DNA of 33,548 bases from a virus, in the IMG/VR virus record IMGVR_UViG_3300048929_000461, positions 1 to 33,548 of that record. One strand, 5' to 3'. The position numbers were made by a program, and so were the translations under genes. Below the pieces are notes generated by a model. The model searched no databases and was not told where the DNA came from. It was given only the letters and a program-made list of their open reading frames with translations. Below, piece after piece: positions 3,850 through 32,707 of this stretch (positions are counted from its first letter, which is position 1; every line of letters begins with the position of its first letter).

Positions 3850-3899
3850 TATCTCCTCTTGTGGTGGCCAGCTTGGTTTGCTGGTTGCAAGAGGAGATA
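3850..3899 (-). promoter_or_regulatory. Leader hairpin sequestering the ribosome-binding site
   Basis: On the minus strand TATCTCCTCTTG (3899-3888) is a perfect 12-base complement of CAAGAGGAGATA (3861-3850), which contains the ribosome-binding site. Between them sits a smaller hairpin, CCAGC-AAACCAA-GCTGG (3884-3868), one of the phage's ACCAA-loop hairpins. The leader can therefore fold with the site hidden in the outer stem. Confidence 0.7.
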
Positions 3900-5046: not shown

Positions 5047-5065
5047 CGCCAGCAACCAACTGGCG
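5047..5065 (+). promoter_or_regulatory. ACCAA-loop leader hairpin (gene at 5102)
   Basis: CGCCAG-CAACCAA-CTGGCG: a 6-bp perfect stem with a 7-base loop, 37 bases before the start at 5102. The loop is an exact complement of TTGGTTG in the terminator loop at 32027-32037. Confidence 0.6.
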
Positions 5066-5318: not shown

Positions 5319-5346
5319 CAATTCCTACACAAATTTGTAGGAATTG
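5319..5346. promoter_or_regulatory. 28-bp palindrome containing ACAAATTTGT
   Basis: CAATTCCTACA (5319-5329) and TGTAGGAATTG (5336-5346) are perfect inverted repeats around CAAATT. The centre contains ACAAATTTGT (5329-5338), the decamer that overlaps the -35 boxes at 6018 and 16493. No T-run follows, so an operator is likelier than a terminator. Just to the right, TATAAGG (5355-5361) and CCTTATA (5374-5380) form another inverted repeat. Confidence 0.6.
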
Positions 5347-5394
5347 TCAAGCGCTATAAGGTTTCACCAAAATCCTTATAACGCAACCAACCTG

Positions 5395-5997: not shown

Positions 5998-6017
5998 GCA
6001 TCCACCTTGGAGAAATC

Positions 6018-6046
6018 TTGACAAATTTGTAAAAATAGTTTAGTTT
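6018..6046 (+). promoter_or_regulatory. Early promoter with operator ACAAATTTGT
   Basis: TTGACA (6018-6023), 17-base spacer, TAGTTT (6041-6046). The palindrome ACAAATTTGT (6021-6030) overlaps the -35. The stretch CTTGACAAATTTGTAAAAA followed by GTTTAG is almost identical to the promoter at 16493, 10.5 kb away. Confidence 0.7.
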
Positions 6047-6100
6047 CATAACCCTGCTGCTTTGTCAACCACAAGGCGGCCACCACGCAGAGGAGACGAC

Positions 6101-7691: not shown

Positions 7692-7714
7692 GCGGCTGGC
7701 CACCAACCAGCCGC
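7692..7714 (+). promoter_or_regulatory. ACCAA-loop leader hairpin (gene at 7742)
   Basis: GCGGCTGG-CCACCAA-CCAGCCGC: an 8-bp perfect stem, the strongest member of the family. It is followed by CACCATACATTGAGGAGAC and the start at 7742. Confidence 0.75.
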
Positions 7715-7741
7715 ACTTCACCATACATTGAGGAGACAATT

Positions 7742-9847: not shown

Positions 9848-9874
9848 TATTTCACCACATTTGAGGAGACACCC

Positions 9875-10970: not shown

Positions 10971-11900
10971 ATGGCCCCACTACCTCGCGCACAATCCAGT
11001 ACTGTCAGAGCAATATATCAAGCCTACGAAGCCGCAGCCTCGTCATGGGACAGCCTCGGCATATCCGTCGGTGAGGCCAACAACCCATGCGACCGTGCTC
11101 TCTGGTATGCCTTTCGCTGGGCATCGCCGCTTGAAAAGCACCACGGCCGGCAGCTTCGATTGTTCGAGACCGGCAACATCGAGGAGGACAGGCTCGTTGC
11201 CGACCTGGAGCGCATCGGCGTCGATGTCTATGGGCAGCAGGACAAGATCAGGCTGGTGCAGGGGCACGTCCGCGGCAAGTGCGACGGCAAGGCGATGGGC
11301 GTCGTCGAGGCGCCGAAGACTGAGCATCTGCTCGAATTTAAGTCTAGCAATGCCAAAGGTATGAAGCTGATAGTTAAAGACGGATGTGAGAAGGCGAAGC
11401 CGCTCCACTACGGCCAGTGCCAGCTTGGGTTACACGCCTTCGGTCTGTCGCGATGCCTCTACCTCGTCAGCTGCAAAGATGACGACACGCTCTATGCCGA
11501 GCGCATCGAATATGATCCCGAGTTCTGCCTGCGTCTGCTGGCGCGGTTGGAGCGCATCATTAGTTCACCTGAGCCGCCTTCACGCATCAACGAGGCACCG
11601 GACTGGTTCGAATGCATGTTCTGCAAGCACAAGCCTGTCTGCAAGGAGGGCGCTTGGCCCCGCGTGACGTGCCGGTCCTGCATCCACTCTTCACCGGAGA
11701 TGGGCGGCGATGGTCATTGGTCATGCGCGCGATGGGCAAAGCCGATCTCATTCGACGAGCAAAAGGAAGGCTGCCCCACGCATCTCACCATCCCGGCTCT
11801 CGTGCCAGGCGAACAGACTGATTGCGACGAGGAAGCTGAGACGATCACTTACGTCCTGCGAGATGGCACGACATGGATTGATGGCGCCACCAACGCCTGA
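10971..11900 (+). CDS. PD-(D/E)XK (Cas4/RecB-like) nuclease with likely Fe-S cluster
   Basis: A 309-residue exonuclease. The nuclease core shows Asp105 in GKCDGK, Glu122-x-Lys124 in LLEFKSS and Gln149 in the QCQLGLHAFG helix. Cysteines follow the Cas4/AddB arrangement: Cys40 in NPCDRALWY before the core, then Cys215-x2-Cys218-x5-Cys224 after it, which predicts a 4Fe-4S cluster. A second cysteine group (234, 237, 252, 268) looks like a separate zinc site, with an HxxC-like W-S-C-A-R-W turn and a short C-terminal domain. It probably resects DNA ends for the Sak4/DUF669 pair. GTGGGG lies upstream of the ATG, but this gene lacks the usual leader. Confidence 0.85.
   Translation: MAPLPRAQSSTVRAIYQAYEAAASSWDSLGISVGEANNPCDRALWYAFRWASPLEKHHGRQLRLFETGNIEEDRLVADLERIGVDVYGQQDKIRLVQGHVRGKCDGKAMGVVEAPKTEHLLEFKSSNAKGMKLIVKDGCEKAKPLHYGQCQLGLHAFGLSRCLYLVSCKDDDTLYAERIEYDPEFCLRLLARLERIISSPEPPSRINEAPDWFECMFCKHKPVCKEGAWPRVTCRSCIHSSPEMGGDGHWSCARWAKPISFDEQKEGCPTHLTIPALVPGEQTDCDEEAETITYVLRDGTTWIDGATNA
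11883..11897 (+). promoter_or_regulatory. ACCAA-loop leader hairpin overlapping a gene end
   Basis: GGCG-CCACCAA-CGCC, directly before the nuclease stop codon (TGA 11898-11900), and followed by CCACACCACATGAGGAGACC and the start at 11924. That the hairpin is kept inside coding sequence argues for function. Confidence 0.65.
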
Positions 11901-11923
11901 CCACACCACATGAGGAGACCACG

Positions 11924-12442
11924 ATGCCACCTATTGCGGTGAATGATAACAACCCGCGCAATCCAGAGTTCGACCGCAAGTTATTGGCCTATGAGCCGGC
12001 ACTGCGAAGACTGGCGCGGAAGATCACCAAGAATGAAGATGCGAGCGACGAACTGTTTCAGTCGGCGATGGTCGTTATGTTGCGCCGTCATCGCGAATGC
12101 CGCCTTGAGACTTTCTGGACGTGGGCCGTCCTCTGCGTAAGGGGGACGGCGCAGGAATTCGTTCGCACCAATTCCACCAAATCGCGGTCCGCTGAGGTCT
12201 GCAGTCTCTCGGCGTTTGACGAACTGCCGGGCTCTACCTTTCCGCATCAGGAGGAAGGTACAGACCTATCGCGTGTTGTTTCCCTGCTGGAGGGCCGCAA
12301 TGGCACGATGCTGATGCGCAGGGCAATGGGTGAGACGCTGGAGGCCATCGGCAACGACCATGGCCTTACGAAAGAACGCGTTCGCCAGGTTGTCATCAAG
12401 GAGCGGGCGAGGGTGCTTGGGCAGCTGCGGGAGGCTGGTTAG
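11924..12442 (+). CDS. Phage sigma-70-like factor
   Basis: A 172-residue protein with two sigma regions. Region 2-like: LRRLARKITKNEDASDELFQSAMVVMLRR then FWTWAVLCVRGTAQEFVR. Region 4-like: GETLEAIGNDHGLTKERVRQVVIKERARVLGQL, with the classic G-L-x-x-E-R-V-R-Q recognition helix. The size is that of ECF sigma factors. It could redirect host RNA polymerase to phage late promoters, which is inference. The N-terminus carries AVNDNN, the ANDN motif variant. The start follows a full leader. The stop overlaps by 4 bases the end of an opposing membrane-protein gene. Confidence 0.75.
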   Translation: MPPIAVNDNNPRNPEFDRKLLAYEPALRRLARKITKNEDASDELFQSAMVVMLRRHRECRLETFWTWAVLCVRGTAQEFVRTNSTKSRSAEVCSLSAFDELPGSTFPHQEEGTDLSRVVSLLEGRNGTMLMRRAMGETLEAIGNDHGLTKERVRQVVIKERARVLGQLREAG

Positions 12443-16470: not shown

Positions 16471-16492
16471 AACTCGGCATCCAATGTGGTTC

Positions 16493-16521
16493 TTGACAAA
16501 TTTGTAAAAACGGTTTAGCTT
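16493..16521 (+). promoter_or_regulatory. Second copy of the early promoter/operator
   Basis: TTGACA (16493-16498) with the palindrome ACAAATTTGT (16496-16505) overlapping it, a 17-base spacer and TAGCTT. It matches the promoter at 6018 over most of about 28 bases. It would restart early transcription after the cargo gene at 14485, under the same repressor. Confidence 0.65.
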
Positions 16522-16530
16522 TGAATACTG

Positions 16531-16546
16531 CGCCACACCAATGGCG
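16531..16546 (+). promoter_or_regulatory. ACCAA-loop leader hairpin (gene at 16569)
   Basis: CGCCA-CACCAA-TGGCG with a further G-T pair outside. It is followed by TCACCACATTGAGGAGAT and the start at 16569, and begins 10 bases past the -10 of the 16493 promoter, so it must be at the very 5' end of that transcript. Confidence 0.65.
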
Positions 16547-16568
16547 TCACCACATTGAGGAGATGAGA

Positions 16569-17865: not shown

Positions 17866-17884
17866 GCCGCGCCACCAACGCGGC
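17866..17884 (+). promoter_or_regulatory. ACCAA-loop leader hairpin (gene at 17924)
   Basis: GCCGCG-CCACCAA-CGCGGC, a 6-bp perfect stem, followed by AACACCATAGTCTGAGGAGAC and the start at 17924. CACCACC also precedes it. Confidence 0.7.
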
Positions 17885-17923
17885 TTCCGCTTCGGCGGTA
17901 ACACCATAGTCTGAGGAGACATT

Positions 17924-21372: not shown

Positions 21373-21412
21373 CTTTCAGCTCCGTTCCACTCGAATTGCC
21401 ATTCTAACCGAC

Positions 21413-21427
21413 GACGCCACCAACGTC
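21413..21427 (+). promoter_or_regulatory. ACCAA-loop leader hairpin (gene at 21463)
   Basis: GACG-CCACCAA-CGTC, with an outer CCG/CGG pair of strands (21408-21410, 21429-21431). It is followed by CACCACATCAAGAGGAGAT and the start at 21463. Confidence 0.65.
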
Positions 21428-21462
21428 TCGGCACAACAACACCACATCAAGAGGAGATTACC

Positions 21463-30735: not shown

Positions 30736-30757
30736 ATAGCACCACAGAGGAGACGAT

Positions 30758-31669
30758 ATGGCCAGACATGGATCACTTGCAGAGCAGTTGGCGGCGGTGC
30801 GCCGCTTTGCCACTGAACCCGATCATCAGCCCGAGCCGCTACAGACCAATTGGTCAGTTGTTGCCGCGAACGACAACAATCCGGATGATGTCGAGGATCT
30901 CAAGCATGACCGCAAAAGGCTGGTCACGCCGTCGGTAGCGGAAATCATGAGGAACGTTGCATCAGGTGAAGTGGAGAAAAACGAAGAAGGGCAGACGATT
31001 CGCATCGGCCGACTTCGTTTCAGTGACGGGAACCAGACCGAAAGAGCGTTCAGGCTTACGATCGACGGAGGCGTTGAGGAATATGCCGCAAGGATGCCAG
31101 CAGGTGCGATGCTTGGTTCACGCGACAAGGTTGACGTTGCGCTTGGCGGCGACGAAAACCCACGTGAGGTGATCGAGAGCAACAACTACTTCGCCGAGAT
31201 GCTGGACACCAAGAAGCCCAGATACCTGACCGGAAAGAAGCACAACGGCCCGCGTGTGAGGATGACGGCAGAAGAAGCCAGATCGGAGCTAACCAAGGCC
31301 TACGCCAACACCGACATGAGCAAGGTTACTTTCACTCGCTGCCCTGATGGTCTTCCGTGTGGCTCCGCAAGGATCGCAGATAGCTTCCTGGGAATGCAAA
31401 AGACCACATGCGCAGGTGGCGGTTCGATGATGTGGCAGGACATAGTCACTGCAACGGCCGAACGCAAAGAGTGGTTCGATGCGTTAGATCAGCTCAAGGA
31501 AAAGGATCGCCTCGCTCTGAACGCATCCATATCTGCGGAGAACTACGCAGACATCGGTGTGGCCTTGGGCCAGACGCGCACCTACGCTGATAAAAAGAAC
31601 GGAGGACGGAAAGCCTTAATGGCTGCAAACGATAATCTCATGTCAGCGATACGAAAATTTTCAGCTTAG
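30758..31669 (+). CDS. Hypothetical phage protein (303 aa)
   Basis: A 303-residue protein of unknown function. ANDN occurs near both ends (VAANDNNPDD, AANDNLMSAI). The middle has a stretch with RLRFSDGNQTERAFRLTIDGGVEEYAARMPAGAMLG, probably a beta domain, and a Cys pair (CPDGLPCG). The gene follows a leader with CACCACAGAGGAGACG. It is the last protein gene before the structured RNA and tRNA region and has no terminator of its own, so the transcript should continue through that region to 32056. Confidence 0.65.
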   Translation: MARHGSLAEQLAAVRRFATEPDHQPEPLQTNWSVVAANDNNPDDVEDLKHDRKRLVTPSVAEIMRNVASGEVEKNEEGQTIRIGRLRFSDGNQTERAFRLTIDGGVEEYAARMPAGAMLGSRDKVDVALGGDENPREVIESNNYFAEMLDTKKPRYLTGKKHNGPRVRMTAEEARSELTKAYANTDMSKVTFTRCPDGLPCGSARIADSFLGMQKTTCAGGGSMMWQDIVTATAERKEWFDALDQLKEKDRLALNASISAENYADIGVALGQTRTYADKKNGGRKALMAANDNLMSAIRKFSA

Positions 31670-31686
31670 GGTAGGGAAAACGCGAT

Positions 31687-31897
31687 CTCGGAGAGAGTAA
31701 TGTGAAGGGGTGGCGCAACGTAGTTGCGAACCCCACTGCACTCCGAGCGCTCTAAGCGTCGGACCCATCGCCATGCTGCACTTGTTGCAGCCTCTGAGCT
31801 TTGGGTAACTATCGCCGCCCCAATCCTCTGCTTGCAAGCTTGGCCCTGAATTGACAGGCATCCGCTGTGGACGCGCAGTGGTGGGCGGGTAACTATC
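31687..31897 (+). ncRNA. Structured RNA region upstream of the tRNA
   Basis: No open frame, but dense nested pairing. CTCGGAG (31687) with CTCCGAG (31741) encloses GGGGT/ACCCC (31707, 31730) and CGCAAC/GTTGCG (31714, 31723). Then CGCT/AGCG (31748, 31755). Then ACCCA/TGGGT (31763, 31802) around GCTGCA/TGCAGC (31775, 31786). Then CCGCCC/GGGCGG (31815, 31883) enclosing CCTG/CAGG and CCGCTG/CAGTGG, which is a cloverleaf-like unit of about 73 bases. That unit and the tRNA are each preceded by GGGTAACTATC (31803-31813, 31887-31897). It may be a novel structured RNA, or decayed tRNA genes. Confidence 0.45.
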
Positions 31898-31898
31898 A

Positions 31899-31975
31899 CG
31901 TGGAGTCGAGCAGACCGGTAGCTCGCCAGCCTCATAAGCTGGAGGCCGTGAGTTCAAATCTCACCTCCGCAACCG
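31899..31975 (+). tRNA. Initiator-like tRNA-Met(CAU) encoded by the phage
   Basis: A complete cloverleaf: acceptor CGTGGAG/CTCCGCA, D arm GAGC/GCTC with GG in the loop, anticodon arm CCAGC-CTCATAA-GCTGG with anticodon CAT, T arm GTGAG-TTCAAAT-CTCAC, then A-CCG. The C1-A72 mismatch and A11-T24 pair are initiator hallmarks. The third hallmark, three G-C pairs at the base of the anticodon loop, is not kept: pairs 29-41 to 31-39 are A-T, G-C, C-G. The 3' end reads CCG rather than CCA, so CCA must be added after processing. It is not at a prophage border and does not look like an attachment site. Confidence 0.85.
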
Positions 31976-32056
31976 CTCCCATGCGCGTTCTCCTCCGCTT
32001 GCATGGTGATCGTGCGGCCCGTTCCCTTGGTTGGTTGAGCGGGCCGCTTTTGTTTT
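31976..32056 (+). ncRNA. tRNA trailer: candidate two-hairpin sRNA
   Basis: Hairpin 1: CCATGC-GCG (31979-31987), loop TTCTCCTC, CGC-TT-GCATGG (31996-32006). The loop contains TCTCCTC (31989-31995), the exact complement of the phage ribosome-binding site GAGGAGA. Hairpin 2 is the terminator with loop containing TTGGTTGGTTG (32027-32037), complementary to the ACCAA loops of the leaders. The order of the two loops fits antiparallel pairing with a leader. Cleavage at the tRNA 3' end would release this RNA. Confidence 0.4.
32014..32056 (+). terminator. Strong Rho-independent terminator with 18-base loop
   Basis: GCGGCCCG (32014-32021) pairs perfectly with CGGGCCGC (32040-32047), followed by TTTTGTTTT. 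The loop is unusually long for such a terminator and holds TTGGTTGGTTG. Confidence 0.9.
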
Positions 32057-32070
32057 GATGGGTGTGTGGT

Positions 32071-32331
32071 CTAGGCCAACCCTTCCTTTACCCAAGCTTC
32101 ATAGATTGTTGTGACGTTAGCCATGTCGATTGGCTGGCCTAACCCCTCTACCCAGACAGTTACGCTATCGTGGGCTCCAGATTTTTCTGCATCTACAGCC
32201 TCCTTGAAAGCCACTTTGGCGGGCTTCAAGTCGAGCTCTCTAGCATCCTGAGGGTCATCAGTTTCGCGAATGATTACCCTAGCATCGGCGTCGGGGCTCA
32301 CGTCTTTATACCAGGCTCGATATATCTCCAT
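32071..32331 (-). CDS. Small hypothetical protein on the opposite strand (86 aa)
   Basis: An 86-residue acidic protein (MEIYRAWYKDVSPDADARVIIRETDDPQDARELDLKP in outline; C-terminus GLGQPIDMANVTTIYEAWVKEGL). It looks like a compact alpha/beta fold; no family is recognised. GGAGACG lies 11 bases upstream of the ATG. It is convergent with the RNA region and divergent from the HNH gene, so it has its own promoter near 32340-32380. A lysogenic-conversion gene is possible. Confidence 0.6.
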   Translation of the reverse strand: MEIYRAWYKDVSPDADARVIIRETDDPQDARELDLKPAKVAFKEAVDAEKSGAHDSVTVWVEGLGQPIDMANVTTIYEAWVKEGLA

Positions 32332-32389
32332 TTTCTTACGTCTCCATTTCTAATGATGGCATGGATCGCATCTTAATATGGTGGTTGCA

Positions 32390-32707
32390 ATGCCCAAACC
32401 CTACGGCCGCTCGGCCGAAGCTGCGCTCTACCGTCGAATGTACAAGACGGCACAATGGCAGCGTTTACGTGAGGCGCAGCTTGCTGCCGAGCCGCTATGC
32501 CGGTTCTGCTTGGCGATTGAGGATGTCACAGAGGCAACGACGTGTGACCACGTCAAGCCGCACAAGGGCGACGAGGCTTTGTTCTACGACCCGAGCAACC
32601 TGCAATCACTTTGCGCTCCATGCCACGACAAGCTGAAGGCTCGCATCGAGCGAGGCCAGCATGCCGTAGTCATTGGTGTTGATGGCTATCCGGTGGAGGT
32701 AGGCTGA
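32390..32707 (+). CDS. HNH endonuclease of the packaging module
   Basis: A 105-residue HNH nuclease. The Cys pair CRFC and the pair CAPC bind the structural zinc; the catalytic core is CDHVKPHKGD, then PSNLQSLCAPCHDKLK. Stand-alone HNH proteins next to the terminase are needed with it for cos cleavage in HK97-like phages, which fits the gene order here. I prefer ATG 32390 (GGTGG 5 bases upstream, typical MPK start); ATG 32378 would add 4 residues. The stop overlaps the next start (TGATG). Confidence 0.88.
   Translation: MPKPYGRSAEAALYRRMYKTAQWQRLREAQLAAEPLCRFCLAIEDVTEATTCDHVKPHKGDEALFYDPSNLQSLCAPCHDKLKARIERGQHAVVIGVDGYPVEVG

Follow-up and report, generated by a model that had tools for sequence, protein, structure and literature searches.

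A short phage RNA that ends at a terminator on the boundary between the early and the late genes is a layout familiar from phage lambda. Among phage RNAs, StxS acts in trans, the 6S RNA of lambda is bound by Hfq and is of unknown function, and the c4 RNA of P1 and P7 as well as the sar RNA of P22 block translation by pairing at the ribosome-binding site (PMC12197685). In rhizobia, the small RNA (sRNA) NfeR1 silences ntrB by means of anti-Shine-Dalgarno (anti-SD) loops, which pair with the translation start region (PMC10746234). On the side of the leaders, the SAS/ESAS signal of cluster K mycobacteriophages is a repeated motif over the SD that is found at non-structural genes only, often with an upstream inverted repeat, and whether its partner is an RNA or a protein was left open (PMC3203893).

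The locus analyzed herein lies in a 33.5-kb IMG/VR virus record (33,548 nt; the whole of this stretch is referred to as the window) of a temperate phage, which encodes an integrase, an S24-type repressor, a DNA polymerase III beta-like clamp, a helicase, a sigma-70-like factor, methylases and PrimPol, carries an HNH endonuclease gene at its right end, and has the 16-3-like phages of Rhizobiaceae as relatives. A hairpin and an intrinsic terminator are located after the last early gene and before the HNH gene (Table 1). This arrangement resembles that of lambda 6S and StxS in that a terminator separates the early from the late block, but the sequences are unrelated, and StxS has not been described as targeting early phage leaders. 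Whereas c4 and sar each act on a single antirepressor mRNA, the complement of the present loop precedes many early genes. With the alpha-r14 (cuckoo RNA) family and NfeR1, the hairpin element shares a conserved anti-SD loop on stems that vary. The alpha-r14 RNAs, however, are host sRNAs having three anti-SD hairpins with CCUCCUCCC, whereas the phage element consists of one hairpin with the core CUCCUC, present in one copy at the early/late junction; none of the relatives has CCUCCUCCC in the loop, and the loop in the window is UUCUCCUC. By these defining features the phage RNA is outside the alpha-r14 family, and NfeR1 offers an experimental precedent, from the same bacterial family, for an anti-SD mechanism.

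Table 1. Positions of the hairpin element, its neighbors and GAGGAGA-bearing leaders in the window
Feature	Position	Strand	Remarks
GAGGAGA leader of lysogeny-region gene	3852..3858	-	ACCAA-loop hairpin
GAGGAGA SD of 119-aa early gene	6090..6096	+	
GAGGAGA leader	7730..7736	+	ACCAA-loop hairpin
GAGGAGA SD of DNA polymerase III beta-like gene	9863..9869	+	hairpin upstream
GAGGAGA SD of sigma-70-like gene 11924-12442	11912..11918	+	candidate target
GAGGAGA SD of gp157-like gene	16557..16563	+	ACCAA-loop hairpin
GAGGAGA SD of MT-A70-like gene	17913..17919	+	ACCAA-loop hairpin
GAGGAGA SD of C5-cytosine methylase gene	21451..21457	+	ACCAA-loop hairpin
GAGGAGA SD of ORF 30758	30747..30753	+	candidate target
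Last early gene	30758..31669	+	303 aa, phrog_36072, function unassigned; start carries GAGGAGA
Upstream conserved structured RNA domain	31684..31812	+	starts a short way past the stop of ORF 30758-31669; ends GGGTAACTAT
Second module	31813..31896	+	ends in GGGTAACTAT; in some relatives, others have different hairpins instead
tRNA-Met(CAU), initiator-like	31899..31974	+	C1 x A72 mismatch; optional neighbor of the hairpin
Hairpin 1 (anti-SD hairpin)	31977..32010 (approx.)	+	stem CCAUGC/GCAUGG plus GCG/CGC
Hairpin 1 loop, UUCUCCUC	31988-31995	+	universal core CUCCUC at 31990-31995
Intrinsic terminator	32014..32056 (hairpin 32014-32047)	+	variable loop, UUGGUU here; T tract
HNH endonuclease gene	32378..32707	+	a short way downstream; opens the terminase/late block, judging from 16-3 and TM3_3_14B
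Late leader, example			TTTGGAGAC

A conserved RNA family at the early/late junction

The sequence-only reading of the window had placed, right 3' of tRNA-Met, a hairpin with the loop UUCUCCUC followed by a terminator hairpin, and both were confirmed, the latter with a T tract. The 87-nt stretch folded at -39.6 kcal/mol (z = -4.2), with none of 200 shuffles as good, and the covariance model R1 matched the window at 31973-32017 with 36 bits. When the transcript is folded at full length, UUC in the window loop may pair upstream. The terminator stem carries the conserved motif GG-UU(bulge)-GAG / CUC-CC. The same reading had taken TTGGTTGGTTG for an open terminator loop, which had to be corrected, as the loop comprises only the 6 nt UUGGUU, the next GG being paired, the UU bulged and the G paired.

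By using a 19-base pattern derived from the hairpin, which presupposes the loop, the hairpin and the terminator were found in 48 viral contigs. With the loop sequence not required, a hairpin of the same build and a terminator were located 3' of all 24 of 24 relatives of ORF 30758-31669, at protein identities from 81 to 27%. Named members include Rhizobium phage 16-3, in which the hairpin lies at 59752-59798 within the dubious ORF p109, RHph_TM3_3_14B, Sinorhizobium phage NV1.1.1 and RHph_X2_25. One copy only was present in each of the 23 hairpin-bearing phage records searched whole. Among 43 relatives of the HNH gene, the hairpin accompanied all 39 of at least 85% identity and was missing from the 4 of 48-59% identity. 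The covariance model yielded about a dozen further members in Rhizobiales genomes (at least 34 bits, mostly with a bulged terminator), nothing convincing in the class-level search beyond Rhizobiales, and the search of plasmids for the element gave none.

The stems of the hairpin covary, with 39 doubly changed cells as against 21.5 +- 3.4 in shuffles (0/500) and 1-17 in slid controls, and the loop of hairpin 1 is more conserved than its stems. CUCCUC fell within the terminal loop of 32 of the 33 distinct sequences folded, and the loop variants (UUCUCCUC, CCUCCUCU, UCCUCCUC, CCUCCUC, UCUCCUCCUC and similar) have the complement of GAGGAG as their common part. The match of the loop to GAGGAG, originally noticed in the window, goes beyond chance in that no fewer than 33 distinct sequences have kept the loop. 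The terminator loop differs among relatives, being UUGGUU, UUAAGU, UUUGCU or CAUCGU or replaced outright, and in the contigs L019, L021, L022 and L025 the entire terminator is replaced and the hairpin kept. The hairpin is real and defines a well-conserved RNA family, whose carriers are 16-3-like phages and prophages in Rhizobiaceae. Its identity as a host chromosomal sRNA was rejected upon scanning a genome collection, in which only four Agrobacterium matches had both the hairpin and the terminator, the rest being chance matches in other sequence. In Rfam, the tRNA alone reached the gathering score, the best sub-threshold sRNA matches scoring 12-14 bits where 45-49.5 were needed, and a description of the element was absent from the open-licence papers searched; as far as these searches reach, it is previously undescribed. 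For annotators, this adds an RNA family now hidden under dubious ORFs. Annotated ORFs overlap the hairpin in L164 (5554-5856, p109 of 16-3) and L223 (8528-9139, the HNH gene of X2_25); p109 is probably a spurious gene call, while the X2_25 HNH gene probably starts farther downstream than annotated.

The sequence-only reading had further treated the RNA as a tRNA trailer released by tRNA 3' processing. A tRNA-Met lies upstream of the hairpin in 36 of the 48 loci, in 8 of these tens of bases away, and is absent from the other 12. The hairpin is therefore an independent element, and neither the definition as a trailer nor tRNA processing as the defining step could be maintained. The tRNA-Met of L006, closely related to that of the window, was 81% identical to four host copies. 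The window tRNA-Met ends in CCG in this record, and most relatives encode CCA right before the hairpin; in TM3_3_3 and phiLM21, too, a tRNA-Met lies close to the early/late boundary.

Further upstream, the structured domain at 31684-31812 showed 33 consensus pairs, 11 of them with compensatory changes, in an alignment of 11 phages, and had no match in Rfam. In TM3_3_14B, the stop codon of the last early gene marks the start of this upstream RNA, with no space between the two. No sigma-70-like promoter was detected at 31600-32400; the phages encode their own sigma-like factor. The conserved modules within 31684-31896 each end in G(G)GTAACTAT and are shuffled among phages. ORF 30758-31669 adjoins the hairpin RNA in every relative found. 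Its AlphaFold model (mean pLDDT 46.7) was unusable except for a predicted helical C-terminus, which, given so poor a model, could at most tentatively be a DNA-binding domain.

GAGGAG in the leaders of early genes

In an annotation-free count of start sites in 18 phages plus the window, GAGGAG was present in 138 of 482 SD-bearing early starts and in 2 of 305 late ones. Since the 18 phages share ancestry, pooled p-values overstate independence and tests within one phage are safer; at the annotated starts of the two phages whose annotation was usable, GAGGAG was found in 7/28 early versus 0/30 late genes of TM3_3_14B (p = 0.004) and in 11/32 versus 0/24 of NV1.1.1 (p = 0.001), while the lysogeny-region and other non-late genes of these two phages had it in 14/66.

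The controls were three rhizobial phages taken to lack the hairpin: TM3_3_3 and ppBeUSDA76-1, in which the covariance model found no credible hairpin, and the TM3_3_3-like phage phiLM21. GAGGAG occurred in 3/65 of their early SD starts and in 3/94 SD starts of the host, and it made up 138 of the 265 strong early SDs in hairpin phages as compared with 3 of 27 in the controls (p = 3e-5). In the control phages, too, strong SDs were less frequent at late (12/72) than at early starts (27/65); the share of strong SDs among late genes did not differ between hairpin phages and controls (p = 0.32). Weak late SDs alone thus do not point to the hairpin RNA, and the avoidance by late genes is weakened as proof of targeting in trans. 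What sets the hairpin phages apart is that their early genes favor GAGGAG. A late leader can have the same frame as an early one (CACCACATTTGGAGAC, late, versus CACCACAAGAGGAGAC, early).

The early leaders were distinguished by other stretches as well. CACCA was contained in 31% of them, as against 12% of late, 5% of control and 4% of host leaders, and ACCAA in 21% as against 5%, 5% and 2%, respectively, so that the leader signal is more than the SD alone; its consensus is a C/A-rich, CACCAC-like stretch plus GAGGAGAC. Like SAS/ESAS, it is a repeat over the SD that adjoins the start and belongs to non-structural genes. It differs in that the consensus GGGATAGGAGCCC is not matched, the host is a different one, and a candidate RNA partner exists here: the hairpin RNA would be the candidate partner of this SAS-like leader signal. 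A conserved phage RNA is the exact complement of an SD-overlapping leader signal in the same genomes, including that of the long-studied Sinorhizobium phage 16-3.

The window contains 20 copies of GAGGAGA where 4.0 are expected, and 11 of ACCAA...GAGGA where 1.35 are expected. GAGGAG stands ahead of an ORF at no fewer than 11 sites on the plus strand and at 3 on the minus strand, many of them behind a small ACCAA-loop hairpin. CAACCAA at 5053, which had been singled out for pairing 7 of 7 with the terminator loop, is present but stands ahead of no start codon with a reading frame, the nearest downstream GAGGAGA (5253) being without a start. Small leader hairpins, most with an ACCAA loop, were seen about 10-30 nt 5' of the CACCAC/GAGGAGAC start signal at 6040-6090, 7695-7725, 11885-11900, 16535-16550, 17875-17895 and 21410-21440 on the plus strand and at 3860-3890 on the minus strand; they are enriched in the early leaders of hairpin-bearing phages, resemble the ESAS of cluster K mycobacteriophages and are unrelated to the terminator loop.

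The pairing between the loop and the SDs is short (6-8 bp), and its predicted specificity held in part: by duplex energy, the loop paired better with the early leaders of the window (-9.7) than with host leaders (-8.8), and better than shuffled loops did (-8.1), but no better than with the early leaders of unrelated phages (-9.5). Covariation of loop and SD outside the core was not found, GAGGAGA being used at 30/41 sites in phages with a loop expected to favor GAGGAGG and at 94/123 in the others (p = 0.68). An A before GAGGAG was observed at 23/41 sites in the phages with the CCUCCUCU loop versus 25/123, which fits pairing but follows clades. The proposal of a second contact, made by the terminator loop with ACCAA leaders in a two-point pairing, was discarded. 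That loop is variable; ACCAA leaders occurred independently of it (11/25 with a UUGG loop versus 47/100 without, p = 0.83); its match to such leaders was no more than chance; and its duplex energies were unspecific, being -12.1 with the phage's own early leaders versus -11.7 with host and -12.4 with foreign late leaders.

Candidate functions of the hairpin RNA

We assign a probability of roughly 0.5 to the reading that an anti-SD RNA, terminated at the early/late junction, base-pairs with the SDs of early genes and reduces their translation. Of the sequence-only reading, comparison supports a phage RNA with an exposed and conserved anti-SD loop, in phages whose early and lysogeny but not late genes use GAGGAG, whereas two-point pairing and release from the tRNA have been dropped. 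Starting within the 3' untranslated region that follows the last early gene, the RNA would run to the intrinsic terminator, where RNA polymerase, having crossed the early operon, would stop and release it. If made in this way and stable, it would act in trans, the CUCCUC loop base-pairing with the GAGGAG(A) SDs of early and some lysogeny genes. This pairing would block ribosome binding, and early protein synthesis would be damped toward the late phase; the late genes, with weak SDs lacking GAGGAG, would escape. Were the pairing true, the timing of phage expression could be set translationally by one anti-SD RNA. A wider reading, which we put forward tentatively and hold to be rather doubtful, has the early/late switch governed by a phage-wide RNA code, in which early leaders would be marked by the ACCAA-loop hairpin, CACCAC and GAGGAGAC, and one dedicated RNA, made once polymerase has traversed the early operon, would read the SD part and shut early translation, with late genes escaping.

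In the foremost alternative, which we consider unlikely, the RNA would be a regulated transcription stop like tR' of lambda. The hairpin and the bulged terminator would be read in cis by an antitermination factor, the anti-SD loop serving as a recognition element or keeping ribosomes or late SDs from interfering, and the late genes would lack GAGGAG because their transcript also includes the loop. The position of the terminator, between the early operon and HNH/terminase, suits such a role, and the gap from the terminator to the HNH gene is 18 nt in L106 and L028 and roughly 14 nt in 16-3. The HNH genes of these phages therefore need read-through. Elsewhere read-through is not required, however, and in most relatives 100-1700 nt separate the terminator from HNH, which leaves room for a promoter. 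The UU-bulged terminator motif is kept, even with swapped strands, and the structured domain upstream is also conserved; yet the terminator is replaced outright in the four contigs named above, in which the hairpin stays. A cis role, moreover, predicts no enrichment of GAGGAG in early genes. As to the motif itself, its strands are swapped in L079, L082 and L088, and it is possibly a protein site.

Quite improbable is an ordinary end-of-operon structure, in which the pyrimidine-rich loop would be kept for RNA stability, for processing or for DNA-level reasons such as a packaging signal close to cos, and pairing would have no part in regulation. It would agree with the site near HNH, which lies about 390 nt from cos in 16-3, and with the uptake of tRNAs and other inserts by this region. 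A terminator needs no fixed loop, yet here the loop has changed less than the stems, and a single copy is kept across large divergence. Least probable is an anti-SD RNA aimed at the host, which would lower host translation by mimicking the 16S rRNA 3' end or the rhizobial NfeR1/AbcR RNAs and would make the GAGGAG leaders of the phage a separate feature: many loops do hold CCUCC, which is the core of the 16S anti-SD, and CCUCCUCCC is the loop of the NfeR1 type, but the universal core is CUCCUC, the window-type loop UUCUCCUC is without CCUCC, and GAGGAG is rare at host starts (3/94).

The hairpin element was also borne by a "Bacteriophage sp." scaffold from human feces (L050, MT839724.1, 621-704), which looks like rhizobial phage sequence in a gut sample. 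In the window, three TTGACAAATTTGTA...-like repeats at 5324-5354, 6016-6046 and 16491-16521 are promoter-like and contain a ACAAATTTGT palindrome, and they are likely repressor operators/promoters.
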